This document shows positions 1 to 64,000 of a DNA stretch of 64,000 nucleotides, piece after piece (the stretch's first letter is position 1; every line of letters starts with the position of its first letter). Source of the DNA: Hirudinaria manillensis. Lineage: Eukaryota > Annelida > Clitellata > Hirudinida > Hirudinidae. The position numbers and the translations under genes are program-made. The notes below the pieces were generated by a model. The model was given only the letters and a program-made list of their open reading frames with translations, searched no databases and had not been told where the DNA came from. The DNA lies in assembly GCA_034509925.1 (NCBI GenBank), contig CM067529.1, positions 11,045,001 to 11,109,000 on the forward strand, given 5' to 3'.

Positions 1-9233
<9,233 letters not shown>

Positions 9234-40799: not shown

Positions 40800-40899
40800 C
40801 GTTTTGGCGATGCTCGGTTTTGCCAAAGCACTTAAATTCAGCCTATATGAGTTGGGATATTATGTCCAATTGTTAATGGTCACAAAGATCCATTGTGCT

Positions 40900-40971
40900 G
40901 GGGATGTAGCTCAGTGGTAGAGCGCTCGCTTCGCATGTGAGAGGTCACGGGTTCAATCCCCGTCATCTCCA
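40900..40971 (+). tRNA. tRNA-Ala (CGC), copy 3
   Basis: One change (GGTCACGGG for GGCCACGGG) just before the T stem. Only TTT runs follow within 40 bp, so termination may be weak. Confidence 0.95.
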
Positions 40972-41607: not shown

Positions 41608-41679
41608 GGGGATGTAGCTCAGTGGTAGAGCGCTCGCTTCGCATGTGAGAGGCCACGGGTTCAAACCCCGTCATCTCCA
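41608..41679 (+). tRNA. tRNA-Ala (CGC), copy 4
   Basis: As copy 1 except TTCAAAC for TTCAATC in the T loop. TTTT follows within 10 bp. Confidence 0.96.
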
Positions 41680-42053
41680 GGCTCTTTTGGCAGTAGAAAT
41701 TCTATAATTTCTCAATTATCAGTTATTCCCCTCTTCGTTTTGAGTGGACTTCCTCGTCTAGCCATGACAATAAAATATTTTAATGTATTAATTATTAAAT
41801 ACAATTGTTTGCAGGTATTAATTTTTTTGCTTTTCCTTTTCGACGGGTTTATCTGTTTGACTAATTAACTTCTTGGATCAGCCTGCTAGCGGAGGCTTGC
41901 GTCTCCTTAAGGCTGATTCCCGAGTCTCTTTATTAACTGTCCTGAGTTGTTCGTTTTTGTTTTCTTGACTTAACGATTAATAAATTGGCTCAAAAGAAAA
42001 TGGTTAAAACCGTGATATAGCTTATTAAATCAAGTATTGGGGAACCAAATCAC

Positions 42054-42125
42054 GGGGATGTAGCTCAGTGGTAGAGCGCTCGCTTCGCATGTGAGAGGTC
42101 ACGGGTTCAATCCCCGTCATCTCCA
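42054..42125 (+). tRNA. tRNA-Ala (CGC), copy 5
   Basis: Same single change as copy 3, so these two are the closest pair. TTTT follows within 8 bp. Confidence 0.96.
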
Positions 42126-45646: not shown

Positions 45647-45971
45647 TTGTAAATAAACAAATTCCGAGTGTAAAAATAAAAGCAAAGTAAAACCAATCTC
45701 CAGCACAAAATAACATTAGGCGCTCGGCGAACAGGAACAAACATTAGTCATCGTAGCGAAAATAATTTCAACAAAATAACGAAGCTTCAAAAGTAAAAAA
45801 TTAAAGGAAAAAAGAATTAGCTTCAAAGATGTAAAATGGATCACTAAAACGCGATTGTTTCGAACGGTCTCGTTCTTCGCCGCCCTTCAAAAGAAAACCT
45901 GCAAAACGCCCTTCATTCGCAATTGCCGAGACGAACGGTCGCTCGCAATTCCTTAAAACTCCAACGCCCTA

Positions 45972-46044
45972 CACCTCCGACGGGACTCGAACCCGCAATC
46001 CCCGGCTTAGGAGGCCGATGCCTTATCCATTAGGCCACGGAGGC
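45972..46044 (-). tRNA. tRNA-Arg (CCT), array copy 1
   Basis: Acceptor GCCTCCG pairs with CGGAGGT (G1-U72 wobble, as in other animal tRNA-Arg-CCT), discriminator G, D stem GCCT/AGGC, anticodon loop CTCCTAA (CCT, reads AGG), T arm GCGGGTTCGAGTCCCGT. A box TGGCCTAATGG and B box GGTTCGAGTCC are intact. The unit's spacer is truncated. 341 bp to copy 2. Confidence 0.97.
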
Positions 46045-46312
46045 GCGTTACATGGGATGCTCCGATCGTTTTACTCGATTCAGACTTCGCCAACGACTTT
46101 TCGCGTCCCGCACGAGCGAAACGTAGAGCTCACCTTTCTTGGCCTCCCTTCAAAAGAACGGCCGTCAGTCGGATCGCACGCTTCGAAGAGCGACGAATAG
46201 CGTCGTCAGAAAACCTTCAAAACGCCCTTCATTCAGCCTGGCTTTCTGCGTACGGAGCCGCAATTGCCGAGACGAACGGTCGCTCGCAATTCCTTAAAAC
46301 TCCAACGCCCTA

Positions 46313-46385
46313 CACCTCCGACGGGACTCGAACCCGCAATCCCCGGCTTAGGAGGCCGATGCCTTATCCATTAGGCCACGGAGGC
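46313..46385 (-). tRNA. tRNA-Arg (CCT), array copy 2
   Basis: Consensus tRNA; 340 bp to copy 3. Confidence 0.96.
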
Positions 46386-46652
46386 GCGTTACATGGGATG
46401 CTCCGATCGTTTTACTCGATTCAGACTTCGCCAACGACTTTTCGCGTCCGCACGAGCGAAACGTAGAGCTCACCTTTCTTGGCCTCCCTTCAAAAGAACG
46501 GCCGTCAGTCGGATCGCACACTTCGAAGAGCGACGAATAGCGTCGTCAGAAAACCTGCAAAACGCCCTTCATTCAGCCTGGCTTTCTGCGTACGGAGCCG
46601 CAATTGCCGAGACGAACGGTCGCTCGCAATTCCTTAAAACTCCAACGCCCTA

Positions 46653-46725
46653 CACCTCCGACGGGACCCGAACCCGCAATCCCCGGCTTAGGAGGCCGAT
46701 GCCTTATCCATTAGGCCACGGAGGC
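46653..46725 (-). tRNA. tRNA-Arg (CCT), array copy 3, T-loop variant
   Basis: T loop TTCGGGT instead of TTCGAGT, replacing the near-universal A58, which is also a B-box base; function may be reduced. 330 bp to copy 4. Confidence 0.93.
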
Positions 46726-46982
46726 GCGTTGCATGGGATGCTCCGATCGTTTTACTCGATTCAGACTTCGCCAACGACTTTTCGCGTCCGCACGAGCGAA
46801 ACGTAGAGCTCACCTTTCTTGGCCTCCGTTCAAAAGAACGGCCGTCAATCGGATCGCACGCTTCGAAAAGCGTCGTCAGAAAACCTGCAAAACGCCCTTC
46901 ATTCAGCCTGGCTTTCTGCGTACGGAGCCGCAATTGCTGAGACGAACGGTCGCTCGCAATTCCTTAAAACTCCAACGCCCTA

Positions 46983-47055
46983 CACCTCCGACGGGACTCG
47001 AACCCGCAATCCCCGGCTTAGGAGGCCGATGCCTTATCCATTAGGCCACGGAGGC
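46983..47055 (-). tRNA. tRNA-Arg (CCT), array copy 4
   Basis: Consensus tRNA; the upstream flank has TTTTCCTCGA where most have TTTTACTCGA. 331 bp to copy 5. Confidence 0.96.
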
Positions 47056-47313
47056 GCGTTACATGGGATGCTCCGATCGTTTTCCTCGATTCAGACTTCG
47101 CCAACGACTTTTCGCGTCCCGCACGAGCGAAACGTAGAGCTCACCTTTCTTGGCCTCCCTTCAAAAGAACGGCCGTCAATCGGATCGCACGCTTCGAAAA
47201 GCGTCGTCAGAAAACCTGCAAAACGCCCTTCATTCAGCCTGGCTTTCTGCGTACGGAGCCGCAATTGCCGAGACGAACGGTCGCTCGCAATTCCTTAAAA
47301 CTCCAACGCCCTA

Positions 47314-47386
47314 CACCTCCGACGGGACTCGAACCCGCAATCCCCGGCTTAGGAGGCCGATGACTTATCCATTAGGCCACGGAGGC
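47314..47386 (-). tRNA. tRNA-Arg (CCT), array copy 5, D-stem variant
   Basis: AGTC replaces AGGC in the D stem, breaking one base pair; possibly a pseudogene. 341 bp to copy 6. Confidence 0.9.
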
Positions 47387-47654
47387 GCGTTACATGGGAT
47401 GCTCCGATCGTTTTACTTGATTCAGACTTCGCCAACGACTTTTCGCGTCCCGCACGAGCGAAACGTAGAGCTCACCTTTCTTGGCCTCCCTTCAAAAGAA
47501 CGGCCGTCAGTCGGATCGCACGCTTCGAAGAGCGACGAATAGCGTCGTCAGAAAACCTGCAAAACGCCCTTCATTCAGCCTGGCTTTCTGCGTACGGAGC
47601 CGCAATTGCCGAGACGAACGGTCGCTCGCAATTCCTTAAAACTCCAACGCCCTA

Positions 47655-47727
47655 CACCTCCGACGGGACTCGAACCCGCAATCCCCGGCTTAGGAGGCCG
47701 ATGCCTTATCCATTAGGCCACGGAGGC
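47655..47727 (-). tRNA. tRNA-Arg (CCT), array copy 6
   Basis: Consensus tRNA; 330 bp to copy 7. Confidence 0.96.
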
Positions 47728-47984
47728 GCGTTGCATGGGATGCTCCGATCGTTTTACTCGATTCAGACTTCGCCAACGACTTTTCGCGTCCGCACGAGCG
47801 AAACGTAGAGCTCACCTTTCTTGGCCTCCCTTCAAAAGAACGGCCGTCAATCGGATCGCACGCTTCGAAAAGCGTCGTCAGAAAACCTGCAAAACGCCCT
47901 TCATTCAGCCTGGCTTTCTGCGTACGGAGCCGCAATTGCCGAGACGAACGGTCGCTCGCAATTCCTTAAAACTCCAACGCCCTA

Positions 47985-48057
47985 CACCTCCGACGGGACT
48001 CGAACCCGCAATCCCCGGCTTAGGAGGCCGATGCCTTATCCATTAGGCCACGGAGGC
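47985..48057 (-). tRNA. tRNA-Arg (CCT), array copy 7
   Basis: Consensus tRNA; 331 bp to copy 8. Confidence 0.96.
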
Positions 48058-48315
48058 GCGTTGCATGGGATGCTCCGATCGTTTTACTCGATTCAGACTT
48101 CGCCAACGACTTTTCGCGTCCCGCACGAGCGAAACGTAGAGCTCACCTTTCTTGGCCTCCCTTCAAAAGAACGGCCGTCAATCGGATCGCACGCTTCGAA
48201 AAGCGTCGTCAGAAAACCTGCAAAACGCCCTTCATTCAGCCTGGCTTTCTGCGTACGGAGCCGCAATTGCCGAGACGAACGGTCGCTCGCAATTCCTTAA
48301 AACTCCAACGCCCTA

Positions 48316-48388
48316 CACCTCCGACGGGACTCGAACCCGCAATCCCCGGCTTAGGAGGCCGATGCCTTATCCATTAGGCCACGGAGGC
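48316..48388 (-). tRNA. tRNA-Arg (CCT), array copy 8
   Basis: Consensus tRNA; 341 bp to copy 9. Confidence 0.96.
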
Positions 48389-48656
48389 GCGTTACATGGG
48401 ATGCTCCGATCGTTTTACTCGATTCAGACTTCGCCAACGACTTTTCGCGTCCCGCACGAGCGAAACGTAGAGCTCACCTTTCTTGGCCTCCCTTCAAAAG
48501 AACGGCCGTCAGTCGGATCGCACGCTTCGAAGAGCGACGAATAGCGTCGTCAGAAAACCTGCAAAACGCCCTTCATTCAGCCTGGCTTTCTGCGTACGGA
48601 GCCGCAATTGCCGAGACGAACGATCGCTCGCAATTCCTTAAAACTCCAACGCCCTA

Positions 48657-48729
48657 CACCTCCGACGGGACTCGAACCCGCAATCCCCGGCTTAGGAGGC
48701 CGATGCCTTATCCATTAGGCCACGGAGGC
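48657..48729 (-). tRNA. tRNA-Arg (CCT), array copy 9
   Basis: Consensus tRNA; flank variants CGATCGCTCG and GAACTCAACTT. 331 bp to copy 10. Confidence 0.96.
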
Positions 48730-48987
48730 GCGTTACATGGGATGCTCCGATCGTTTTACTCGATTCAGACTTCGCCAACGACTTTTCGCGTCCCGCACGA
48801 GCGAAACGTAGAACTCAACTTTCTTGGCCTCCCTTCAAAAGAACGGCCGTCAATCGGATCGCACGCTTCGAAAAGCGTCGTCAGAAAACCTGCAAAACGC
48901 CCTTCATTCAGCCTGGCTTTCTGCGTACGGAGCCGCAATTGCCGAGACGAACGGTCGCTCGCAATTCCTTAACACTCCAACGCCCTA

Positions 48988-49060
48988 CACCTCCGACGGG
49001 ACTCGAACCCGCAATCCCCGGCTTAGGAGGCCGATGCCTTATCCATTAGGCCACGGAGGC
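48988..49060 (-). tRNA. tRNA-Arg (CCT), array copy 10, broken terminator
   Basis: Consensus tRNA, but the downstream TTTT is TGTT here, so Pol III termination at the usual place should fail. 331 bp to copy 11. Confidence 0.95.
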
Positions 49061-49318
49061 GCGTTGCATGGGATGCTCCGATCGTTTTACTCGATTCAGA
49101 CTTCGCCAACGACTTTTCGCGTCCCGCACGAGCGAAACGTAGAGCTCACCTTTCTTGGCCTCCCTTCAAAAGAACGGCCGTCAATCGGATCGCACGCTTC
49201 GAAAAGCGTCGTCAGAAAACCTGCAAAACGCCCTTCATTCAGCCTGGCTTTCTGCGTACGGAGCCGCAATTGCCGAGACGAACGATCGCTCGCAATTCCT
49301 TAAAACTCCAACGCCCTA

Positions 49319-49391
49319 CACCTCCGACGGGACCCGAACCCGCAATCCCCGGCTTAGGAGGCCGATGCCTTATCCATTAGGCCACGGAGGC
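49319..49391 (-). tRNA. tRNA-Arg (CCT), array copy 11, T-loop variant
   Basis: Same A58G change as copy 3, from which it is 2666 bp away. 331 bp to copy 12. Confidence 0.93.
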
Positions 49392-49649
49392 GCGTTGCAT
49401 GGGATGCTCCGATCGTTTTACTCGATTCAGACTTCGCCAACGACTTTTCGCGTCCCGCACGAGCGAAACGTAGAGCTCACCTTTCTTGGCCTCCGTTCAA
49501 AAGAACGGCCGTCAATCGGATCGCACGCTTCGAAAAGCGTCGTCAGAAAACCTGCAAAACGCCCTTCATTCAGCCTGGCTTTCTGCGTACGGAGCCGCAA
49601 TTGCCGAGACGAACGGTCGCTCGCAATTCCTTAAAACTCCAACGCCCTA

Positions 49650-49722
49650 CACCTCCGACGGGACTCGAACCCGCAATCCCCGGCTTAGGAGGCCGATGCC
49701 TTATCCATTAGGCCACGGAGGC
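49650..49722 (-). tRNA. tRNA-Arg (CCT), array copy 12
   Basis: Consensus tRNA; shares the TTTTCCTCGA flank of copy 4. 331 bp to copy 13. Confidence 0.96.
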
Positions 49723-49980
49723 GCGTTACATGGGATGCTCCGATCGTTTTCCTCGATTCAGACTTCGCCAACGACTTTTCGCGTCCCGCACGAGCGAAAC
49801 GTAGAGCTCACCTTTCTTGGCCTCCCTTCAAAAGAACGGCCGTCAATCGGATCGCACGCTTCGAAAAGCGTCGTCAGAAAACCTGCAAAACGCCCTTCAT
49901 TCAGCCTGGCTTTCTGCGTACGGAGCCGCAATTGCCGAGACGAACGGTCGCTCGCAATTCCTTAAAACTCCAACGCCCTA

Positions 49981-50053
49981 CACCTCCGACGGGACTCGAA
50001 CCCGCAATCCCCGGCTTAGGAGGCCGATGCCTTATCCATTAGGCCACGGAGGC
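49981..50053 (-). tRNA. tRNA-Arg (CCT), array copy 13
   Basis: Consensus tRNA; 341 bp to copy 14. Confidence 0.96.
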
Positions 50054-50321
50054 GCGTTACATGGGATGCTCCGATCGTTTTACTCGATTCAGACTTCGCC
50101 AACGACTTTTCGCGTCCCGCACGAGCGAAACGTAGAGCTCACCTTTCTTGGCCTCCCTTCAAAAGAACGGCCGTCAGTCGGATCGCACGCTTCGAAGAGC
50201 GACGAATAGCGTCGTCAGAAAACCTGCAAAACGCCCTTCATTCAGCCTGGCTTTCTGCGTACGGAGCCGCAATTGCCGAGACGAACGGTCGCTCGCAATT
50301 CCTTAAAACTCCAACGCCCTA

Positions 50322-50394
50322 CACCTCCGACGGGACTCGAACCCGCAATCCCCGGCTTAGGAGGCCGATGCCTTATCCATTAGGCCACGGAGGC
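50322..50394 (-). tRNA. tRNA-Arg (CCT), array copy 14
   Basis: Consensus tRNA; 330 bp to copy 15. Confidence 0.96.
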
Positions 50395-50651
50395 GCGTTG
50401 CATGGGATGCTCCGATCGTTTTACTCGATTCAGACTTCGCCAACGACTTTTCGCGTCCGCACGAGCGAAACGTAGAGCTCACCTTTCTTGGCCTCCCTTC
50501 AAAAGAACGGCCGTCAATCGGATCGCACGCTTCGAAAAGCGTCGTCAGAAAACCTGCAAAACGCCCTTCATTCAGCCTGGCTTTCTGCGTACGGAGCCGC
50601 AATTGCCGAGACGAACGGTCGCTCGCAATTCCTTAAAACTCCAACGCCCTA

Positions 50652-50724
50652 CACCTCCGACGGGACTCGAACCCGCAATCCCCGGCTTAGGAGGCCGATG
50701 CCTTATCCATTAGGCCACGGAGGC
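50652..50724 (-). tRNA. tRNA-Arg (CCT), array copy 15
   Basis: Consensus tRNA; 341 bp to copy 16. Confidence 0.96.
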
Positions 50725-50992
50725 GCGTTACATGGGATGCTCCGATCGTTTTACTCGATTCAGACTTCGCCAACGACTTTTCGCGTCCCGCACGAGCGAA
50801 ACGTAGAGCTCACCTTTCTTGGCCTCCCTTCAAAAGAACGGCCGTCAGTCGGATCGCACGCTTCGAAGAGCGACGAATAGCGTCGTCAGAAAACCTGCAA
50901 AACGCCCTTCATTCAGCCTGGCTTTCTGCGTACGGAGCCGCAATTGCCGAGACGAACGATCGCTCGCAATTCCTTAAAACTCCAACGCCCTA

Positions 50993-51065
50993 CACCTCCG
51001 ACGGGACTCGAACCCGCAATCCCCGGCTTAGGAGGCCGATGCCTTATCCATTAGGCCACGGAGGC
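50993..51065 (-). tRNA. tRNA-Arg (CCT), array copy 16
   Basis: Consensus tRNA; shares both flank variants of copy 9. 331 bp to copy 17. Confidence 0.96.
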
Positions 51066-51323
51066 GCGTTACATGGGATGCTCCGATCGTTTTACTCGAT
51101 TCAGACTTCGCCAACGACTTTTCGCGTCCCGCACGAGCGAAACGTAGAACTCAACTTTCTTGGCCTCCCTTCAAAAGAACGGCCGTCAATCGGATCGCAC
51201 GCTTCGAAAAGCGTCGTCAGAAAACCTGCAAAACGCCCTTCATTCAGCCTGGCTTTCTGCGTACGGAGCCGCAATTGCCGAGACGAACGGTCGCTCGCAA
51301 TTCCTTAAAACTCCAACGCCCTA

Positions 51324-51396
51324 CACCTCCGACGGGACTCGAACCCGCAATCCCCGGCTTAGGAGGCCGATGCCTTATCCATTAGGCCACGGAGGC
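51324..51396 (-). tRNA. tRNA-Arg (CCT), array copy 17
   Basis: Consensus tRNA; 330 bp to copy 18. Confidence 0.96.
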
Positions 51397-51653
51397 GCGT
51401 TGCATGGGATGCTCCGATCGTTTTACTCGATTCAGACTTCGCCAACGACTTTTCGCGTCCGCACGAGCGAAACGTAGAGCTCACCTTTCTTGGCCTCCCT
51501 TCAAAAGAACGGCCGTCAATCGGATCGCACGCTTCGAAAAGCGTCGTCAGAAAACCTGCAAAACGCCCTTCATTCAGCCTGGCTTTCTGCGTACGGAGCC
51601 GCAATTGCCGAGACGAACGATCGCTCGCAATTCCTTAAAACTCCAACGCCCTA

Positions 51654-51726
51654 CACCTCCGACGGGACTCGAACCCGCAATCCCCGGCTTAGGAGGCCGA
51701 TGCCTTATCCATTAGGCCACGGAGGC
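51654..51726 (-). tRNA. tRNA-Arg (CCT), array copy 18
   Basis: Consensus tRNA; CGATCGCTCG flank as in copies 9, 11 and 16. 331 bp to copy 19. Confidence 0.96.
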
Positions 51727-51984
51727 GCGTTACATGGGATGCTCCGATCGTTTTACTCGATTCAGACTTCGCCAACGACTTTTCGCGTCCCGCACGAGCG
51801 AAACGTAGAGCTCACCTTTCTTGGCCTCCCTTCAAAAGAACGGCCGTCAATCGGATCGCACGCTTCGAAAAGCGTCGTCAGAAAACCTGCAAAACGCCCT
51901 TCATTCAGCCTGGCTTTCTGCGTACGGAGCCGCAATTGCCGAGACGAACGGTCGCTCGCAATTCCTTAAAACTCCAACGCCCTA

Positions 51985-52057
51985 CACCTCCGACGGGACT
52001 CGAACCCGCAATCCCCGGCTTAGGAGGCCGATGCCTTATCCATTAGGCCACGGAGGC
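51985..52057 (-). tRNA. tRNA-Arg (CCT), array copy 19
   Basis: Consensus tRNA; 331 bp to copy 20. Confidence 0.96.
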
Positions 52058-52315
52058 GCGTTACATGGGATGCTCCGATCGTTTTACTCGATTCAGACTT
52101 CGCCAACGACTTTTCGCGTCCCGCACGAGCGAAACGTAGAGCTCACCTTTCTTGGCCTCCCTTCAAAAGAACGGCCGTCAATCGGATCGCACGCTTCGAA
52201 AAGCGTCGTCAGAAAACCTGCAAAACGCCCTTCATTCAGCCTGGCTTTCTGCGTACGGAGCCGCAATTGCCGAGACGAACGGTCGCTCGCAATTCCTTAA
52301 AACTCCAACGCCCTA

Positions 52316-52388
52316 CACCTCCGACGGGACTCGAACCCGCAATCCCCGGCTTAGGAGGCCGATGCCTTATCCATTAGGCCACGGAGGC
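52316..52388 (-). tRNA. tRNA-Arg (CCT), array copy 20
   Basis: Consensus tRNA; shares the TTTTACTTGA flank of copy 5. 341 bp to copy 21. Confidence 0.96.
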
Positions 52389-52656
52389 GCGTTACATGGG
52401 ATGCTCCGATCGTTTTACTTGATTCAGACTTCGCCAACGACTTTTCGCGTCCCGCACGAGCGAAACGTAGAGCTCACCTTTCTTGGCCTCCCTTCAAAAG
52501 AACGGCCGTCAGTCGGATCGCACGCTTCGAAGAGCGACGAATAGCGTCGTCAGAAAACCTGCAAAACGCCCTTCATTCAGCCTGGCTTTCTGCGTACGGA
52601 GCCGCAATTGCCGAGACGAACGGTCGCTCGCAATTCCTTAAAACTCCAACGCCCTA

Positions 52657-52729
52657 CACCTCCGACGGGACTCGAACCCGCAATCCCCGGCTTAGGAGGC
52701 CGATGCCTTATCCATTAGGCCACGGAGGC
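52657..52729 (-). tRNA. tRNA-Arg (CCT), array copy 21
   Basis: Consensus tRNA; 330 bp to copy 22. Confidence 0.96.
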
Positions 52730-52986
52730 GCGTTGCATGGGATGCTCCGATCGTTTTACTCGATTCAGACTTCGCCAACGACTTTTCGCGTCCGCACGAG
52801 CGAAACGTAGAGCTCACCTTTCTTGGCCTCCCTTCAAAAGAACGGCCGTCAATCGGATCGCACGCTTCGAAAAGCGTCGTCAGAAAACCTGCAAAACGCC
52901 CTTCATTCAGCCTGGCTTTCTGCGTACGGAGCCGCAATTGCCGAGACGAACGGTCGCTCGCAATTCCTTAAAACTCCAACGCCCTA

Positions 52987-53059
52987 CACCTCCGACGGGA
53001 CTCGAACCCGCAATCCCCGGCTTAGGAGGCCGATGCCTTATCCATTAGGCCACGGAGGC
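52987..53059 (-). tRNA. tRNA-Arg (CCT), array copy 22
   Basis: Consensus tRNA; 330 bp to copy 23. Confidence 0.96.
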
Positions 53060-53316
53060 GCGTTGCATGGGATGCTCCGATCGTTTTACTCGATTCAGAC
53101 TTCGCCAACGACTTTTCGCGTCCGCACGAGCGAAACGTAGAGCTCACCTTTCTTGGCCTCCCTTCAAAAGAACGGCCGTCAATCGGATCGCACGCTTCGA
53201 AAAGCGTCGTCAGAAAACCTGCAAAACGCCCTTCATTCAGCCTGGCTTTCTGCGTACGGAGCCGCAATTGCCGAGACGAACGGTCGCTCGCAATTCCTTA
53301 AAACTCCAACGCCCTA

Positions 53317-53389
53317 CACCTCCGACGGGACTCGAACCCGCAATCCCCGGCTTAGGAGGCCGATGCCTTATCCATTAGGCCACGGAGGC
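53317..53389 (-). tRNA. tRNA-Arg (CCT), array copy 23
   Basis: Consensus tRNA; 341 bp to copy 24. Confidence 0.96.
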
Positions 53390-53657
53390 GCGTTACATGG
53401 GATGCTCCGATCGTTTTACTCGATTCAGACTTCGCCAACGACTTTTCGCGTCCCGCACGAGCGAAACGTAGAGCTCACCTTTCTTGGCCTCCCTTCAAAA
53501 GAACGGCCGTCAGTCGGATCGCACGCTTCGAAGAGCGACGAATAGCGTCGTCAGAAAACCTGCAAAACGCCCTTCATTCAGCCTGGCTTTCTGCGTACGG
53601 AGCCGCAATTGCCGAGACGAACGGTCGCTCGCAATTCCTTAAAACTCCAACGCCCTA

Positions 53658-53730
53658 CACCTCCGACGGGACTCGAACCCGCAATCCCCGGCTTAGGAGG
53701 CCGATGCCTTATCCATTAGGCCACGGAGGC
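53658..53730 (-). tRNA. tRNA-Arg (CCT), array copy 24
   Basis: Consensus tRNA; 331 bp to copy 25. Confidence 0.96.
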
Positions 53731-53988
53731 GCGTTACATGGGATGCTCCGATCGTTTTACTCGATTCAGACTTCGCCAACGACTTTTCGCGTCCCGCACG
53801 AGCGAAACGTAGAGCTCACCTTTCTTGGCCTCCCTTCAAAAGAACGGCCGTCAATCGGATCGCACGCTTCGAAAAGCGTCGTCAGAAAACCTGCAAAACG
53901 CCCTTCATTCAGCCTGGCTTTCTGCGTACGGAGCCGCAATTGCCGAGACGAACGGTCGCTCGCAATTCCTTAAAACTCCAACGCCCTA

Positions 53989-54061
53989 CACCTCCGACGG
54001 GACTCGAACCCGCAATCCCCGGCTTAGGAGGCCGATGCCTTATCCATTAGGCCACGGAGGC
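53989..54061 (-). tRNA. tRNA-Arg (CCT), array copy 25
   Basis: Consensus tRNA; 330 bp to copy 26. Confidence 0.96.
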
Positions 54062-54318
54062 GCGTTGCATGGGATGCTCCGATCGTTTTACTCGATTCAG
54101 ACTTCGCCAACGACTTTTCGCGTCCGCACGAGCGAAACGTAGAGCTCACCTTTCTTGGCCTCCCTTCAAAAGAACGGCCGTCAATCGGATCGCACGCTTC
54201 GAAAAGCGTCGTCAGAAAACCTGCAAAACGCCCTTCATTCAGCCTGGCTTTCTGCGTACGGAGCCGCAATTGCCGAGACGAACGGTCGCTCGCAATTCCT
54301 TAAAACTCCAACGCCCTA

Positions 54319-54391
54319 CACCTCCGACGGGACTCGAACCCGCAATCCCCGGCTTAGGAGGCCGATGCCTTATCCATTAGGCCACGGAGGC
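54319..54391 (-). tRNA. tRNA-Arg (CCT), array copy 26
   Basis: Consensus tRNA; 331 bp to copy 27. Confidence 0.96.
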
Positions 54392-54649
54392 GCGTTACAT
54401 GGGATGCTCCGATCGTTTTACTCGATTCAGACTTCGCCAACGACTTTTCGCGTCCCGCACGAGCGAAACGTAGAGCTCACCTTTCTTGGCCTCCCTTCAA
54501 AAGAACGGCCGTCAATCGGATCGCACGCTTCGAAAAGCGTCGTCAGAAAACCTGCAAAACGCCCTTCATTCAGCCTGGCTTTCTGCGTACGGAGCCGCAA
54601 TTGCCGAGACGAACGGTCGCTCGCAATTCCTTAAAACTCCAACGCCCTA

Positions 54650-54722
54650 CACCTCCGACGGGACTCGAACCCGCAATCCCCGGCTTAGGAGGCCGATGCC
54701 TTATCCATTAGGCCACGGAGGC
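54650..54722 (-). tRNA. tRNA-Arg (CCT), array copy 27
   Basis: Consensus tRNA; 331 bp to copy 28. Confidence 0.96.
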
Positions 54723-54980
54723 GCGTTACATGGGATGCTCCGATCGTTTTACTCGATTCAGACTTCGCCAACGACTTTTCGCGTCCCGCACGAGCGAAAC
54801 GTAGAGCTCACCTTTCTTGGCCTCCCTTCAAAAGAACGGCCGTCAATCGGATCGCACGCTTCGAAAAGCGTCGTCAGAAAACCTGCAAAACGCCCTTCAT
54901 TCAGCCTGGCTTTCTGCGTACGGAGCCGCAATTGCCGAGACGAACGGTCGCTCGCAATTCCTTAAAACTCCAACGCCCTA

Positions 54981-55053
54981 CACCTCCGACGGGACTCGAA
55001 CCCGCAATCCCCGGCTTAGGAGGCCGATGCCTTATCCATTAGGCCACGGAGGC
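54981..55053 (-). tRNA. tRNA-Arg (CCT), array copy 28
   Basis: Consensus tRNA; 341 bp to copy 29. Confidence 0.96.
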
Positions 55054-55321
55054 GCGTTACATGGGATGCTCCGATCGTTTTACTCGATTCAGACTTCGCC
55101 AACGACTTTTCGCGTCCCGCACGAGCGAAACGTAGAGCTCACCTTTCTTGGCCTCCCTTCAAAAGAACGGCCGTCAGTCGGATCGCACGCTTCGAAGAGC
55201 GACGAATAGCGTCGTCAGAAAACCTGCAAAACGCCCTTCATTCAGCCTGGCTTTCTGCGTACGGAGCCGCAATTGCCGAGACGAACGGTCGCTCGCAATT
55301 CCTTAAAACTCCAACGCCCTA

Positions 55322-55394
55322 CACCTCCGACGGGACTCGAACCCGCAATCCCCGGCTTAGGAGGCCGATGCCTTATCCATTAGGCCACGGAGGC
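55322..55394 (-). tRNA. tRNA-Arg (CCT), array copy 29
   Basis: Consensus tRNA; followed by the last 330-bp interval seen in the window. Confidence 0.96.
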
Positions 55395-55651
55395 GCGTTA
55401 CATGGGATGCTCCGATCGTTTTACTCGATTCAGACTTCGCCAACGACTTTTCGCGTCCGCACGAGCGAAACGTAGAGCTCACCTTTCTTGGCCTCCCTTC
55501 AAAAGAACGGCCGTCAATCGGATCGCACGCTTCGAAAAGCGTCGTCAGAAAACCTGCAAAACGCCCTTCATTCAGCCTGGCTTTCTGCGTACGGAGCCGC
55601 AATTGCCGAGACGAACGGTCGCTCGCAATTCCTTAAAACTCCAACGCCCTA

Positions 55652-55724
55652 CACCTCCGACGGGACTCGAACCCGCAATCCCCGGCTTAGGAGGCCGATG
55701 CCTTATCCATTAGGCCACGGAGGC
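55652..55724 (-). tRNA. tRNA-Arg (CCT), array copy 30
   Basis: Consensus tRNA; 331 bp to copy 31. Confidence 0.96.
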
Positions 55725-55982
55725 GCGTTACATGGGATGCTCCGATCGTTTTACTCGATTCAGACTTCGCCAACGACTTTTCGCGTCCCGCACGAGCGAA
55801 ACGTAGAGCTCACCTTTCTTGGCCTCCCTTCAAAAGAACGGCCGTCAATCGGATCGCACGCTTCGAAAAGCGTCGTCAGAAAACCTGCAAAACGCCCTTC
55901 ATTCAGCCTGGCTTTCTGCGTACGGAGCCGCAATTGCCGAGACGAACGGTCGCTCGCAATTCCTTAAAACTCCAACGCCCTA

Positions 55983-56055
55983 CACCTCCGACGGGACTCG
56001 AACCCGCAATCCCCGGCTTAGGAGGCCGATGCCTTATCCATTAGGCCACGGAGGC
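55983..56055 (-). tRNA. tRNA-Arg (CCT), array copy 31
   Basis: Consensus tRNA; 341 bp to copy 32. Confidence 0.96.
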
Positions 56056-56323
56056 GCGTTACATGGGATGCTCCGATCGTTTTACTCGATTCAGACTTCG
56101 CCAACGACTTTTCGCGTCCCGCACGAGCGAAACGTAGAGCTCACCTTTCTTGGCCTCCCTTCAAAAGAACGGCCGTCAGTCGGATCGCACGCTTCGAAGA
56201 GCGACGAATAGCGTCGTCAGAAAACCTGCAAAACGCCCTTCATTCAGCCTGGCTTTCTGCGTACGGAGCCGCAATTGCCGAGACGAACGGTCGCTCGCAA
56301 TTCCTTAAAACTCCAACGCCCTA

Positions 56324-56396
56324 CACCTCCGACGGGACTCGAACCCGCAATCCCCGGCTTAGGAGGCCGATGCCTTATCCATTAGGCCACGGAGGC
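56324..56396 (-). tRNA. tRNA-Arg (CCT), array copy 32
   Basis: Consensus tRNA; last flank variant (GCTCAACTTT) of the array lies about 90 bp to its right. 331 bp to copy 33. Confidence 0.96.
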
Positions 56397-56654
56397 GCGT
56401 TACATGGGATGCTCCGATCGTTTTACTCGATTCAGACTTCGCCAACGACTTTTCGCGTCCCGCACGAGCGAAACGTAGAGCTCAACTTTCTTGGCCTCCC
56501 TTCAAAAGAACGGCCGTCAATCGGATCGCACGCTTCGAAAAGCGTCGTCAGAAAACCTGCAAAACGCCCTTCATTCAGCCTGGCTTTCTGCGTACGGAGC
56601 CGCAATTGCCGAGACGAACGGTCGCTCGCAATTCCTTAAAACTCCAACGCCCTA

Positions 56655-56727
56655 CACCTCCGACGGGACTCGAACCCGCAATCCCCGGCTTAGGAGGCCG
56701 ATGCCTTATCCATTAGGCCACGGAGGC
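56655..56727 (-). tRNA. tRNA-Arg (CCT), array copy 33
   Basis: Consensus tRNA; 331 bp to copy 34. Confidence 0.96.
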
Positions 56728-56985
56728 GCGTTACATGGGATGCTCCGATCGTTTTACTCGATTCAGACTTCGCCAACGACTTTTCGCGTCCCGCACGAGC
56801 GAAACGTAGAGCTCACCTTTCTTGGCCTCCCTTCAAAAGAACGGCCGTCAATCGGATCGCACGCTTCGAAAAGCGTCGTCAGAAAACCTGCAAAACGCCC
56901 TTCATTCAGCCTGGCTTTCTGCGTACGGAGCCGCAATTGCCGAGACGAACGGTCGCTCGCAATTCCTTAAAACTCCAACGCCCTA

Positions 56986-57058
56986 CACCTCCGACGGGAC
57001 TCGAACCCGCAATCCCCGGCTTAGGAGGCCGATGCCTTATCCATTAGGCCACGGAGGC
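56986..57058 (-). tRNA. tRNA-Arg (CCT), array copy 34
   Basis: Consensus tRNA; 331 bp to copy 35. Confidence 0.96.
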
Positions 57059-57316
57059 GCGTTACATGGGATGCTCCGATCGTTTTACTCGATTCAGACT
57101 TCGCCAACGACTTTTCGCGTCCCGCACGAGCGAAACGTAGAGCTCACCTTTCTTGGCCTCCCTTCAAAAGAACGGCCGTCAATCGGATCGCACGCTTCGA
57201 AAAGCGTCGTCAGAAAACCTGCAAAACGCCCTTCATTCAGCCTGGCTTTCTGCGTACGGAGCCGCAATTGCCGAGACGAACGGTCGCTCGCAATTCCTTA
57301 AAACTCCAACGCCCTA

Positions 57317-57389
57317 CACCTCCGACGGGACTCGAACCCGCAATCCCCGGCTTAGGAGGCCGATGCCTTATCCATTAGGCCACGGAGGC
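57317..57389 (-). tRNA. tRNA-Arg (CCT), array copy 35
   Basis: Consensus tRNA; 331 bp to copy 36. Confidence 0.96.
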
Positions 57390-57647
57390 GCGTTACATGG
57401 GATGCTCCGATCGTTTTACTCGATTCAGACTTCGCCAACGACTTTTCGCGTCCCGCACGAGCGAAACGTAGAGCTCACCTTTCTTGGCCTCCCTTCAAAA
57501 GAACGGCCGTCAATCGGATCGCACGCTTCGAAAAGCGTCGTCAGAAAACCTGCAAAACGCCCTTCATTCAGCCTGGCTTTCTGCGTACGGAGCCGCAATT
57601 GCCGAGACGAACGGTCGCTCGCAATTCCTTAAAACTCCAACGCCCTA

Positions 57648-57720
57648 CACCTCCGACGGGACTCGAACCCGCAATCCCCGGCTTAGGAGGCCGATGCCTT
57701 ATCCATTAGGCCACGGAGGC
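57648..57720 (-). tRNA. tRNA-Arg (CCT), array copy 36
   Basis: Consensus tRNA; 341 bp to copy 37. Confidence 0.96.
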
Positions 57721-57988
57721 GCGTTACATGGGATGCTCCGATCGTTTTACTCGATTCAGACTTCGCCAACGACTTTTCGCGTCCCGCACGAGCGAAACGT
57801 AGAGCTCACCTTTCTTGGCCTCCCTTCAAAAGAACGGCCGTCAGTCGGATCGCACGCTTCGAAGAGCGACGAATAGCGTCGTCAGAAAACCTGCAAAACG
57901 CCCTTCATTCAGCCTGGCTTTCTGCGTACGGAGCCGCAATTGCCGAGACGAACGGTCGCTCGCAATTCCTTAAAACTCCAACGCCCTA

Positions 57989-58061
57989 CACCTCCGACGG
58001 GACTCGAACCCGCAATCCCCGGCTTAGGAGGCCGATGCCTTATCCATTAGGCCACGGAGGC
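57989..58061 (-). tRNA. tRNA-Arg (CCT), array copy 37
   Basis: Consensus tRNA; 331 bp to copy 38. Confidence 0.96.
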
Positions 58062-58319
58062 GCGTTACATGGGATGCTCCGATCGTTTTACTCGATTCAG
58101 ACTTCGCCAACGACTTTTCGCGTCCCGCACGAGCGAAACGTAGAGCTCACCTTTCTTGGCCTCCCTTCAAAAGAACGGCCGTCAATCGGATCGCACGCTT
58201 CGAAAAGCGTCGTCAGAAAACCTGCAAAACGCCCTTCATTCAGCCTGGCTTTCTGCGTACGGAGCCGCAATTGCCGAGACGAACGGTCGCTCGCAATTCC
58301 TTAAAACTCCAACGCCCTA

Positions 58320-58392
58320 CACCTCCGACGGGACTCGAACCCGCAATCCCCGGCTTAGGAGGCCGATGCCTTATCCATTAGGCCACGGAGGC
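58320..58392 (-). tRNA. tRNA-Arg (CCT), array copy 38
   Basis: Consensus tRNA; 341 bp to copy 39. Confidence 0.96.
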
Positions 58393-58660
58393 GCGTTACA
58401 TGGGATGCTCCGATCGTTTTACTCGATTCAGACTTCGCCAACGACTTTTCGCGTCCCGCACGAGCGAAACGTAGAGCTCACCTTTCTTGGCCTCCCTTCA
58501 AAAGAACGGCCGTCAGTCGGATCGCACGCTTCGAAGAGCGACGAATAGCGTCGTCAGAAAACCTGCAAAACGCCCTTCATTCAGCCTGGCTTTCTGCGTA
58601 CGGAGCCGCAATTGCCGAGACGAACGGTCGCTCGCAATTCCTTAAAACTCCAACGCCCTA

Positions 58661-58733
58661 CACCTCCGACGGGACTCGAACCCGCAATCCCCGGCTTAGG
58701 AGGCCGATGCCTTATCCATTAGGCCACGGAGGC
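58661..58733 (-). tRNA. tRNA-Arg (CCT), array copy 39
   Basis: Consensus tRNA; 331 bp to copy 40. Confidence 0.96.
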
Positions 58734-58991
58734 GCGTTACATGGGATGCTCCGATCGTTTTACTCGATTCAGACTTCGCCAACGACTTTTCGCGTCCCGC
58801 ACGAGCGAAACGTAGAGCTCACCTTTCTTGGCCTCCCTTCAAAAGAACGGCCGTCAATCGGATCGCACGCTTCGAAAAGCGTCGTCAGAAAACCTGCAAA
58901 ACGCCCTTCATTCAGCCTGGCTTTCTGCGTACGGAGCCGCAATTGCCGAGACGAACGGTCGCTCGCAATTCCTTAAAACTCCAACGCCCTA

Positions 58992-59064
58992 CACCTCCGA
59001 CGGGACTCGAACCCGCAATCCCCGGCTTAGGAGGCCGATGCCTTATCCATTAGGCCACGGAGGC
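58992..59064 (-). tRNA. tRNA-Arg (CCT), array copy 40
   Basis: Consensus tRNA; 331 bp to copy 41. Confidence 0.96.
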
Positions 59065-59322
59065 GCGTTACATGGGATGCTCCGATCGTTTTACTCGATT
59101 CAGACTTCGCCAACGACTTTTCGCGTCCCGCACGAGCGAAACGTAGAGCTCACCTTTCTTGGCCTCCCTTCAAAAGAACGGCCGTCAATCGGATCGCACG
59201 CTTCGAAAAGCGTCGTCAGAAAACCTGCAAAACGCCCTTCATTCAGCCTGGCTTTCTGCGTACGGAGCCGCAATTGCCGAGACGAACGGTCGCTCGCAAT
59301 TCCTTAAAACTCCAACGCCCTA

Positions 59323-59395
59323 CACCTCCGACGGGACTCGAACCCGCAATCCCCGGCTTAGGAGGCCGATGCCTTATCCATTAGGCCACGGAGGC
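59323..59395 (-). tRNA. tRNA-Arg (CCT), array copy 41
   Basis: Consensus tRNA; 331 bp to copy 42. Confidence 0.96.
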
Positions 59396-59653
59396 GCGTT
59401 ACATGGGATGCTCCGATCGTTTTACTCGATTCAGACTTCGCCAACGACTTTTCGCGTCCCGCACGAGCGAAACGTAGAGCTCACCTTTCTTGGCCTCCCT
59501 TCAAAAGAACGGCCGTCAATCGGATCGCACGCTTCGAAAAGCGTCGTCAGAAAACCTGCAAAACGCCCTTCATTCAGCCTGGCTTTCTGCGTACGGAGCC
59601 GCAATTGCCGAGACGAACGGTCGCTCGCAATTCCTTAAAACTCCAACGCCCTA

Positions 59654-59726
59654 CACCTCCGACGGGACTCGAACCCGCAATCCCCGGCTTAGGAGGCCGA
59701 TGCCTTATCCATTAGGCCACGGAGGC
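59654..59726 (-). tRNA. tRNA-Arg (CCT), array copy 42
   Basis: Consensus tRNA; 331 bp to copy 43. Confidence 0.96.
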
Positions 59727-59984
59727 GCGTTACATGGGATGCTCCGATCGTTTTACTCGATTCAGACTTCGCCAACGACTTTTCGCGTCCCGCACGAGCG
59801 AAACGTAGAGCTCACCTTTCTTGGCCTCCCTTCAAAAGAACGGCCGTCAATCGGATCGCACGCTTCGAAAAGCGTCGTCAGAAAACCTGCAAAACGCCCT
59901 TCATTCAGCCTGGCTTTCTGCGTACGGAGCCGCAATTGCCGAGACGAACGGTCGCTCGCAATTCCTTAAAACTCCAACGCCCTA

Positions 59985-60057
59985 CACCTCCGACGGGACT
60001 CGAACCCGCAATCCCCGGCTTAGGAGGCCGATGCCTTATCCATTAGGCCACGGAGGC
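59985..60057 (-). tRNA. tRNA-Arg (CCT), array copy 43
   Basis: Consensus tRNA; 341 bp to copy 44. Confidence 0.96.
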
Positions 60058-60325
60058 GCGTTACATGGGATGCTCCGATCGTTTTACTCGATTCAGACTT
60101 CGCCAACGACTTTTCGCGTCCCGCACGAGCGAAACGTAGAGCTCACCTTTCTTGGCCTCCCTTCAAAAGAACGGCCGTCAGTCGGATCGCACGCTTCGAA
60201 GAGCGACGAATAGCGTCGTCAGAAAACCTGCAAAACGCCCTTCATTCAGCCTGGCTTTCTGCGTACGGAGCCGCAATTGCCGAGACGAACGGTCGCTCGC
60301 AATTCCTTAAAACTCCAACGCCCTA

Positions 60326-60398
60326 CACCTCCGACGGGACTCGAACCCGCAATCCCCGGCTTAGGAGGCCGATGCCTTATCCATTAGGCCACGGAGGC
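60326..60398 (-). tRNA. tRNA-Arg (CCT), array copy 44
   Basis: Consensus tRNA; 331 bp to copy 45. Confidence 0.96.
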
Positions 60399-60656
60399 GC
60401 GTTACATGGGATGCTCCGATCGTTTTACTCGATTCAGACTTCGCCAACGACTTTTCGCGTCCCGCACGAGCGAAACGTAGAGCTCACCTTTCTTGGCCTC
60501 CCTTCAAAAGAACGGCCGTCAATCGGATCGCACGCTTCGAAAAGCGTCGTCAGAAAACCTGCAAAACGCCCTTCATTCAGCCTGGCTTTCTGCGTACGGA
60601 GCCGCAATTGCCGAGACGAACGGTCGCTCGCAATTCCTTAAAACTCCAACGCCCTA

Positions 60657-60729
60657 CACCTCCGACGGGACTCGAACCCGCAATCCCCGGCTTAGGAGGC
60701 CGATGCCTTATCCATTAGGCCACGGAGGC
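60657..60729 (-). tRNA. tRNA-Arg (CCT), array copy 45
   Basis: Consensus tRNA; 331 bp to copy 46. Confidence 0.96.
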
Positions 60730-60987
60730 GCGTTACATGGGATGCTCCGATCGTTTTACTCGATTCAGACTTCGCCAACGACTTTTCGCGTCCCGCACGA
60801 GCGAAACGTAGAGCTCACCTTTCTTGGCCTCCCTTCAAAAGAACGGCCGTCAATCGGATCGCACGCTTCGAAAAGCGTCGTCAGAAAACCTGCAAAACGC
60901 CCTTCATTCAGCCTGGCTTTCTGCGTACGGAGCCGCAATTGCCGAGACGAACGGTCGCTCGCAATTCCTTAAAACTCCAACGCCCTA

Positions 60988-61060
60988 CACCTCCGACGGG
61001 ACTCGAACCCGCAATCCCCGGCTTAGGAGGCCGATGCCTTATCCATTAGGCCACGGAGGC
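60988..61060 (-). tRNA. tRNA-Arg (CCT), array copy 46
   Basis: Consensus tRNA; 341 bp to copy 47. Confidence 0.96.
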
Positions 61061-61328
61061 GCGTTACATGGGATGCTCCGATCGTTTTACTCGATTCAGA
61101 CTTCGCCAACGACTTTTCGCGTCCCGCACGAGCGAAACGTAGAGCTCACCTTTCTTGGCCTCCCTTCAAAAGAACGGCCGTCAGTCGGATCGCACGCTTC
61201 GAAGAGCGACGAATAGCGTCGTCAGAAAACCTGCAAAACGCCCTTCATTCAGCCTGGCTTTCTGCGTACGGAGCCGCAATTGCCGAGACGAACGGTCGCT
61301 CGCAATTCCTTAAAACTCCAACGCCCTA

Positions 61329-61401
61329 CACCTCCGACGGGACTCGAACCCGCAATCCCCGGCTTAGGAGGCCGATGCCTTATCCATTAGGCCACGGAGG
61401 C
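61329..61401 (-). tRNA. tRNA-Arg (CCT), array copy 47
   Basis: Consensus tRNA; 331 bp to copy 48. Confidence 0.96.
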
Positions 61402-61659
61402 GCGTTACATGGGATGCTCCGATCGTTTTACTCGATTCAGACTTCGCCAACGACTTTTCGCGTCCCGCACGAGCGAAACGTAGAGCTCACCTTTCTTGGC
61501 CTCCCTTCAAAAGAACGGCCGTCAATCGGATCGCACGCTTCGAAAAGCGTCGTCAGAAAACCTGCAAAACGCCCTTCATTCAGCCTGGCTTTCTGCGTAC
61601 GGAGCCGCAATTGCCGAGACGAACGGTCGCTCGCAATTCCTTAAAACTCCAACGCCCTA

Positions 61660-61732
61660 CACCTCCGACGGGACTCGAACCCGCAATCCCCGGCTTAGGA
61701 GGCCGATGCCTTATCCATTAGGCCACGGAGGC
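61660..61732 (-). tRNA. tRNA-Arg (CCT), array copy 48
   Basis: Consensus tRNA; 331 bp to copy 49. Confidence 0.96.
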
Positions 61733-61990
61733 GCGTTACATGGGATGCTCCGATCGTTTTACTCGATTCAGACTTCGCCAACGACTTTTCGCGTCCCGCA
61801 CGAGCGAAACGTAGAGCTCACCTTTCTTGGCCTCCCTTCAAAAGAACGGCCGTCAATCGGATCGCACGCTTCGAAAAGCGTCGTCAGAAAACCTGCAAAA
61901 CGCCCTTCATTCAGCCTGGCTTTCTGCGTACGGAGCCGCAATTGCCGAGACGAACGGTCGCTCGCAATTCCTTAAAACTCCAACGCCCTA

Positions 61991-62063
61991 CACCTCCGAC
62001 GGGACTCGAACCCGCAATCCCCGGCTTAGGAGGCCGATGCCTTATCCATTAGGCCACGGAGGC
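61991..62063 (-). tRNA. tRNA-Arg (CCT), array copy 49
   Basis: Consensus tRNA; 331 bp to copy 50. Confidence 0.96.
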
Positions 62064-62321
62064 GCGTTACATGGGATGCTCCGATCGTTTTACTCGATTC
62101 AGACTTCGCCAACGACTTTTCGCGTCCCGCACGAGCGAAACGTAGAGCTCACCTTTCTTGGCCTCCCTTCAAAAGAACGGCCGTCAATCGGATCGCACGC
62201 TTCGAAAAGCGTCGTCAGAAAACCTGCAAAACGCCCTTCATTCAGCCTGGCTTTCTGCGTACGGAGCCGCAATTGCCGAGACGAACGGTCGCTCGCAATT
62301 CCTTAAAACTCCAACGCCCTA

Positions 62322-62394
62322 CACCTCCGACGGGACTCGAACCCGCAATCCCCGGCTTAGGAGGCCGATGCCTTATCCATTAGGCCACGGAGGC
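62322..62394 (-). tRNA. tRNA-Arg (CCT), array copy 50
   Basis: Consensus tRNA; 331 bp to copy 51. Confidence 0.96.
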
Positions 62395-62652
62395 GCGTTA
62401 CATGGGATGCTCCGATCGTTTTACTCGATTCAGACTTCGCCAACGACTTTTCGCGTCCCGCACGAGCGAAACGTAGAGCTCACCTTTCTTGGCCTCCCTT
62501 CAAAAGAACGGCCGTCAATCGGATCGCACGCTTCGAAAAGCGTCGTCAGAAAACCTGCAAAACGCCCTTCATTCAGCCTGGCTTTCTGCGTACGGAGCCG
62601 CAATTGCCGAGACGAACGGTCGCTCGCAATTCCTTAAAACTCCAACGCCCTA

Positions 62653-62725
62653 CACCTCCGACGGGACTCGAACCCGCAATCCCCGGCTTAGGAGGCCGAT
62701 GCCTTATCCATTAGGCCACGGAGGC
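62653..62725 (-). tRNA. tRNA-Arg (CCT), array copy 51
   Basis: Consensus tRNA; 331 bp to copy 52. Confidence 0.96.
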
Positions 62726-62983
62726 GCGTTACATGGGATGCTCCGATCGTTTTACTCGATTCAGACTTCGCCAACGACTTTTCGCGTCCCGCACGAGCGA
62801 AACGTAGAGCTCACCTTTCTTGGCCTCCCTTCAAAAGAACGGCCGTCAATCGGATCGCACGCTTCGAAAAGCGTCGTCAGAAAACCTGCAAAACGCCCTT
62901 CATTCAGCCTGGCTTTCTGCGTACGGAGCCGCAATTGCCGAGACGAACGGTCGCTCGCAATTCCTTAAAACTCCAACGCCCTA

Positions 62984-63056
62984 CACCTCCGACGGGACTC
63001 GAACCCGCAATCCCCGGCTTAGGAGGCCGATGCCTTATCCATTAGGCCACGGAGGC
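62984..63056 (-). tRNA. tRNA-Arg (CCT), array copy 52
   Basis: Consensus tRNA; 341 bp to copy 53. Confidence 0.96.
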
Positions 63057-63324
63057 GCGTTACATGGGATGCTCCGATCGTTTTACTCGATTCAGACTTC
63101 GCCAACGACTTTTCGCGTCCCGCACGAGCGAAACGTAGAGCTCACCTTTCTTGGCCTCCCTTCAAAAGAACGGCCGTCAGTCGGATCGCACGCTTCGAAG
63201 AGCGACGAATAGCGTCGTCAGAAAACCTGCAAAACGCCCTTCATTCAGCCTGGCTTTCTGCGTACGGAGCCGCAATTGCCGAGACGAACGGTCGCTCGCA
63301 ATTCCTTAAAACTCCAACGCCCTA

Positions 63325-63397
63325 CACCTCCGACGGGACTCGAACCCGCAATCCCCGGCTTAGGAGGCCGATGCCTTATCCATTAGGCCACGGAGGC
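63325..63397 (-). tRNA. tRNA-Arg (CCT), array copy 53
   Basis: Consensus tRNA; 331 bp to copy 54. Confidence 0.96.
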
Positions 63398-63655
63398 GCG
63401 TTACATGGGATGCTCCGATCGTTTTACTCGATTCAGACTTCGCCAACGACTTTTCGCGTCCCGCACGAGCGAAACGTAGAGCTCACCTTTCTTGGCCTCC
63501 CTTCAAAAGAACGGCCGTCAATCGGATCGCACGCTTCGAAAAGCGTCGTCAGAAAACCTGCAAAACGCCCTTCATTCAGCCTGGCTTTCTGCGTACGGAG
63601 CCGCAATTGCCGAGACGAACGGTCGCTCGCAATTCCTTAAAACTCCAACGCCCTA

Positions 63656-63728
63656 CACCTCCGACGGGACTCGAACCCGCAATCCCCGGCTTAGGAGGCC
63701 GATGCCTTATCCATTAGGCCACGGAGGC
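63656..63728 (-). tRNA. tRNA-Arg (CCT), array copy 54
   Basis: Consensus tRNA; 331 bp to copy 55. Confidence 0.96.
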
Positions 63729-63986
63729 GCGTTACATGGGATGCTCCGATCGTTTTACTCGATTCAGACTTCGCCAACGACTTTTCGCGTCCCGCACGAG
63801 CGAAACGTAGAGCTCACCTTTCTTGGCCTCCCTTCAAAAGAACGGCCGTCAATCGGATCGCACGCTTCGAAAAGCGTCGTCAGAAAACCTGCAAAACGCC
63901 CTTCATTCAGCCTGGCTTTCTGCGTACGGAGCCGCAATTGCCGAGACGAACGGTCGCTCGCAATTCCTTAAAACTCCAACGCCCTA

Positions 63987-64000
63987 CACCTCCGACGGGA
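63987..64000 (-). tRNA. tRNA-Arg (CCT), array copy 55, cut by window edge
   Basis: Only the last 14 nt of the tRNA 3' side are inside the window; they match consensus. Confidence 0.9.

Follow-up and report, generated by a model that had tools for sequence, protein, structure and literature searches.

A 177-unit tandem array of tRNA-Arg(CCT) genes in the leech Hirudinaria manillensis, one of several tRNA arrays in its genome

We analysed a window of 64,000 nt of Hirudinaria manillensis DNA (C4:11045001-11109000, where C4 is the contig carrying the window; the assembly comprises 148 Mb in 23 contigs), the right-hand part of which is a tandem array of tRNA-Arg(CCT) genes. ARAGORN and the Rfam model RF00005 each detected 59 tRNA genes in the window, 54 of Arg(CCT) and five of Ala(CGC). 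All 54 Arg(CCT) genes were located on the minus strand between window positions 45971 and 63729. Tandem Repeats Finder (TRF) reported 54.2 copies of a 331-bp period over 45918-64000; the 97% matches and the score of 34424 exclude chance as the source of this regularity. The 53 spacings between neighbouring genes were 331 bp (30), 341 bp (14), 330 bp (8) and 340 bp (1). A first-pass annotation made from the sequence alone had counted at least 54 such genes in units of 330, 331 or 341 bp, and the two methods agree with it, with one 340-bp spacing besides. It had also described intact A and B boxes in each unit. This holds for nearly all of them: 51 of the 54 tRNAs are identical, each scoring 64.8 bits with RF00005 (gathering score 29), but the other three are altered: in two an A within the B box is replaced by G, and in one the D stem carries a substitution.

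As had been proposed, the array passes the window edge. Unit similarity stops at C4:11150018, inside the 13.64-Mb contig, and the full array extends from about C4:11090874 to that point, comprising 177 units in 59 kb with both ends read. No N bases were present across 110 kb spanning the array and both flanks. A mismatch scan allowing 15 mismatches recovered 176 array tRNAs, of which 166 were exact, nine carried one substitution and one carried three; the 177th unit, with an altered anticodon arm, was concealed in a 672-bp spacing. In its tRNA, at C4:11118386-11118458 outside the window, the anticodon arm is swapped for other sequence and the remainder is intact. With 166 of 177 tRNAs exact, the possibility raised earlier that most copies are pseudogenes finds no support at the sequence level. 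Of the 174 units aligned across the whole array, 173 retain a TTTT starting 14 bases past the gene, in line with the near-universal TTTT of the first reading.

A genome-wide pattern search for tRNA-Arg(CCT) with up to three mismatches gave 176 matches, all on a single strand, and no further copy was found in the assembly outside the array at this threshold. The genome count equals the array count, so tRNA-Arg(CCT), if made, is probably made from the array. The spacer pattern of the unit gave 149 genome matches, also on one strand, and the roughly 100 listed all lay inside the array. Origin of the array from a short interspersed element or another mobile element was rejected, as the tRNA has no copies outside the array within three mismatches.

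The 174 aligned units fell into 40 haplotypes, the two commonest of which comprised 66 and 38 units. Singleton haplotypes were concentrated at the ends of the array (17 of the 24 units that form the outermost 12 on either side, versus 13 of 150 in the interior; p=1.5e-10), and seven of the 11 damaged tRNAs were at most 12 units away from an end (p=2e-4 against uniform placement). The array thus shows the satellite-type trait of a homogenised tandem repeat with diverged ends. Interior units that are alike and end units that have diverged are what unequal crossing-over should produce, and we infer that it acted here. No lag stood out that would mark a higher-order repeat. Each unit carries one tRNA gene, and in this respect the array departs from satellite DNA as repeats without gene content.

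Within the array, tRNA sites varied as often as spacer sites (8/73 versus 25/270, p=0.66), which suggests that single Arg copies are redundant. A second array, of initiator Met (iMet) genes, was compared. At lag 24, 10 of 55 pairs had equal haplotypes, the top fraction among lags 1-39 (lag 23, 1/56; lag 25, 5/54; lag 4, 12/75), and two pairs of tRNA mutations were exactly 4440 bp, or 24 units, apart. These recurrences show a block duplication in the iMet array.

B-box patterns were counted against reversed controls. GGTTCRANTCC gave 3298 matches (control 271) and GGTTCRANCCC gave 565 (control 163), an excess that would correspond, as a rough estimate, to about 3400 tRNA-like loci. Arrays for five different isoacceptor sets, including Arg(CCT), were found. 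The iMet array has a 185-bp unit and 80 genes (C6:2218565-2233251), with three dispersed pattern matches besides. A Gly(TCC) array with a 293-bp unit begins at C1:3362167 and is regular at first and irregular past about 3379000; 22 B-box matches precede it on C1, and of the 16 scanned 15 were without a tRNA and one held a single Gly(TCC) gene. An array of Thr(AGT) and Leu(CAG) in a 585-bp unit begins at C1:5585951, and one of Ser(AGA) and Ser(TGA) in a 452-bp unit at C2:3784740. Comparison of spacers among arrays gave weak matches only, the best of them over the tRNA itself. The first-pass annotation had called the Arg(CCT) array a massive single-isoacceptor expansion behaving like satellite DNA. 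The expansion is real, homogenised and satellite-like, but it has 177 units rather than 54, and with at least four more tRNA arrays in this genome it is not an isolated event of one isoacceptor.

Arraying is not universal among tRNA genes, and this idea was rejected: tRNA-Sec (three pattern matches), Arg(ACG) (eight) and Ala(CGC) (11) were all non-arrayed. Two of the Sec matches were read and both were called tRNAs. Five of the Arg(ACG) matches, on C13, have the usual arm; these counts rest on a pattern that could miss genes of other loop length. The Arg(TCT) pattern gave one match, as did its control, and no tRNA was called there; an intron or a different loop length may be present in this gene. 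A general arraying of small-RNA genes as in Hydractinia was not seen for U6, which had three matches, non-arrayed, among 47 scored of 13108 candidates. The 5S rRNA array (C6:6120088-6139823, spacing about 200 bp) appears partly decayed: of 2886 candidates 47 were scored, and their scores spread between 39 and 120 bits. Most scored 5S copies were far below the best score. The three Sec matches lie within 1.8 kb (C2:12130402-12132157), and the two genes read are identical.

Base composition sets the arrays apart from their surroundings. Spacers were 53-57% guanine plus cytosine (GC) in all five arrays sampled (54 Arg units, and 3.1, 3.0, 1.4 and 0.4 kb of the others). The flanks of the Arg array were 33% GC over 46 kb on the left and 38% over 5 kb on the right; GC was 33% beside the Sec genes, 36% beside the Ala genes and 27% over 3 kb surrounding a dispersed iMet gene. 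In the Arg and iMet arrays, rare variants (at most 6%) comprised 31 GC-to-AT and 12 AT-to-GC changes (Arg, 17 versus 4; iMet, 14 versus 8). When the rarer base is taken as the newer and the two arrays are pooled, these predict an equilibrium GC of 0.34 (95% 0.19-0.48), versus 0.57 observed. The simplest reading would be a bias in the arrays that favours fixation of G and C. The usual cause of such a bias is GC-biased gene conversion. It is likely to act on these arrays, because spacers of 53-57% GC stand beside flanks of 33-38% while rare variants push toward about 34%.

The coordinates of the array and its neighbours are given in Table 1. The Arg array lies between two protein-coding reading frames, both of which end toward it; the right-hand one is a minus-strand Arg/Ser-rich frame, SR-like by inspection, that stops short of the array. 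The list of open reading frames (ORFs) used here omitted those below 45 aa or of low complexity and printed those of at least 75 aa. A 23-base Ala(CGC) pattern with up to one mismatch gave 11 genome matches, all on C4 between 11084943 and 11371014. Eight of these flank the Arg array, with five plus-strand matches to its left and three minus-strand matches to its right, and left and right copies are 90% identical over 247 bp, spacer included. The matches form three groups, the one in the window and two others at C4:11156999-11157509 and C4:11358953-11371014; their spacers are partly duplicated and their orientations are opposed across the Arg array.

Table 1. Features in and beside the window part of the tRNA-Arg(CCT) array (window positions).
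Feature	Position	Strand	Basis
Five tRNA-Ala(CGC) genes beside the array, irregularly spaced, non-tandem (39921, 40728, 40899, 41608, 42054)	39921..42125	+	ARAGORN, RF00005
Left neighbour: acidic-protein reading frames (45522-45614 with stop); gene model inferred	44870-45268 and 45522-45614	+	ORF list
tRNA-Arg(CCT) array, window part (54 of 177 units; runs on to C4:11150018)	45874..64000	-	ARAGORN, TRF, RF00005, mismatch scan
Left edge of array: diverged, shortened unit remnant; edge set by eye (TRF start 45918)	45874..45970	-	
Candidate Pol III terminator TTTT of first gene	45955..45958	-	sequence
Outermost (first) tRNA-Arg(CCT) gene	45971..46045	-	ARAGORN; RF00005 64.8 bits
tRNA copy, B box A-to-G	46653..46725	-	RF00005 59.6 bits
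tRNA copy, D-stem substitution	47314..47386	-	RF00005 55.3 bits
tRNA copy, B box A-to-G	49319..49391	-	RF00005 59.6 bits
Last complete tRNA-Arg(CCT) gene of window	63655..63729	-	ARAGORN, RF00005

Elsewhere in the window, ribosomal protein eS1 had its best named match in the leech Helobdella robusta (84%), followed by millipede and lancelet (83%), so that eS1 by itself is a weak marker of affinity. A neuroligin-like esterase had its best named matches in two annelids, Helobdella (38%) and the tube worm Ridgeia (28%), and matched another entry at 77%. Judged by these proteins, an annelid is likely and a relative of leeches possible. An intronless frame of 335 codons on the minus strand (25779-26783) is about 40% identical to MAP kinase-interacting kinases and is MNK-like, perhaps a retrogene; as a species marker it was uninformative. 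A perfect ACTC repeat of 33.8 copies (TRF) occupies 4060-4194.

We consider it probable (roughly 70%) that this is a genuine array of 177 tRNA-Arg(CCT) units between two protein-coding genes, one of several tRNA arrays, with copies kept alike by recombination, which would also govern their number to a greater degree than codon demand does. An internal RNA polymerase III (Pol III) promoter and a terminating T-run are predicted for each unit. The likeness of the units would be maintained by unequal crossing-over together with GC-biased gene conversion, and the array would supply the tRNA-Arg(CCT) of the cell, with most copies redundant. Single Arg copies look redundant, yet the complete array is probably required, since no second CCT locus was found. 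Some observations weigh against parts of this reading. Similarity between Arg units drops little with distance. In the iMet array the tRNA is less variable than the spacer (6/72 versus 29/113, p=0.0036; both arrays pooled, p=0.19), so redundancy is not general. The right flank of the Arg array is closer to the array in GC than the left flank, and the equilibrium-GC test, besides its assumption about the newer base and its pooling, is weak for iMet alone.

The fact that the copy number comes from one assembly would allow a false expansion, but 40 haplotypes in 174 units, the diverged ends and 110 kb free of N make an artefact very improbable. A Pol III-bound boundary or insulator between the flanking genes would fit the position of the array between two frames that end toward it, and the human tRNA repeat at 1q23.3 binds CTCF (PMC4041453; published work is cited here and below from parts of each paper). 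It would leave unexplained why various isoacceptors have arrays at unrelated loci, and we regard it as very unlikely. Selection of copy number by high AGG decoding, which the first-pass annotation had suggested, is poorly supported and quite unlikely to be the driver. AGG is in use, making up nine of the 39 Arg codons in window exons, a very small sample, including four of eight in eS1 pieces. However, CGT, CGC and CGA together are used about equally (10/39) and have eight ACG pattern matches, five with the usual arm; similar codon use against 177 versus 5-8 genes makes codon demand a poor explanation. Entamoeba arrays likewise are reported without a link between codon use and gene number (PMC2652664).

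A neutral or selfish satellite that merely contains a tRNA sequence and is mostly silent would account for the homogenisation of the units and for Arg tRNA sites no less variable than their spacer, and in Arabidopsis most tissues keep a Ser/Tyr tRNA cluster silent (PMC12308677). We hold this unlikely, since the array is the only CCT locus found and its genes are nearly all exact, the iMet array displays constraint on the tRNA, and the spacer pattern gives no sign of spread. Somewhat less unlikely is a developmental tRNA bank, in which the massive tRNA synthesis of oocytes or early embryos would draw on arrays and that of other cells on dispersed low-copy genes, by analogy with 5S rRNA and the oocyte tRNA genes of Xenopus. 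The 80 arrayed iMet genes with three dispersed matches fit such a scheme; one dispersed gene, in the C2:7587530 region, differs from the array version at one of 72 bases, in the T loop. Tandem tRNA genes specific to oocytes exist in Xenopus (PMC11500080), and an equivalent idea was put forward as a hypothesis for the tRNAs of zebrafish Chr4 (PMC11075544). Against it, Arg(CCT) has no dispersed gene within three mismatches, so that its array would have to serve all tissues. Beyond the recombination-driven array preferred here, a wider reading is offered tentatively. The arrayed subset of tRNA genes may form self-homogenising GC islands in a two-class system, with arrays giving the bulk supply, perhaps in germline or embryo, dispersed low-copy genes the rest, and isoacceptor copy number uncoupled from codon demand.

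Titles and abstract openings, with few subscription journals covered, gave no report of nuclear tRNA arrays in annelids or leeches, and none was found in the parts consulted of the leech genome papers PMC7303139, PMC10087013 and PMC11134150. For Hirudo, a draft assembly is reported to hold 429 tRNA genes along with 116 pseudogenes, and the parts consulted mention no arrays (PMC7303139). Nor was a closer parallel found in the portions consulted for Drosophila (PMC7919458) or seabass (PMC4833346).

Among the closest systems are Hydractinia and Entamoeba. The leech shares with them head-to-tail units with near-identical spacers, intact tRNAs and arrays for several isoacceptors, but Sec, Arg(ACG) and Ala(CGC) lie outside arrays, so nearly complete arraying of tRNA genes was not found. 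The cnidarian Hydractinia carries many of its tRNAs in arrays of near-identical copies at even spacing, numbering from tens to hundreds, with near-identical spacers (PMC11067881). It differs in that U1, U2, U5, U6 and U3 are also arrayed and all 20 amino acids are covered, whereas the leech has U6 in three non-arrayed copies; GC bias and edge divergence are not mentioned in the sections used. The same source describes tandem tRNA arrays, in part, in Nematostella. In the protist Entamoeba, tandem units hold up to five tRNA genes, concerted evolution has been proposed, some tRNAs also have dispersed genes in low copy number, and function is unproven (PMC2652664). Its arrays exceed 10% of the genome and have short tandem repeats between genes, whereas TRF lists none inside the leech Arg array. 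The human 1q23.3 macrosatellite is likewise a GC-rich tandem repeat with tRNA genes, but has 7.3-kb units, 9-43 per allele, and is bound by CTCF (PMC4041453). Nematostella and teleosts have clusters of at least 50 tRNA genes (PMC2888827), which in Nematostella and zebrafish are mostly heterogeneous pairs, unlike the one- or two-tRNA units of the leech. The tandem genes of Xenopus serve as a tRNA supply, as the leech arrays may do, and their expression timing has been studied, whereas the leech arrays are known from sequence (PMC11500080).

Tandem tRNA arrays are thus a known kind of locus; what seems to be added here is an annelid case, together with its GC islands and its diverged array ends. 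An annelid joins the short list of organisms with such arrays. Its two Arg isoacceptors, with 177 versus 5-8 genes, offer a natural test of whether tRNA gene number tracks codon demand, and its five sampled arrays, at 53-57% spacer GC with new mutations in two pointing to about 34%, offer one of how concerted evolution affects base composition.

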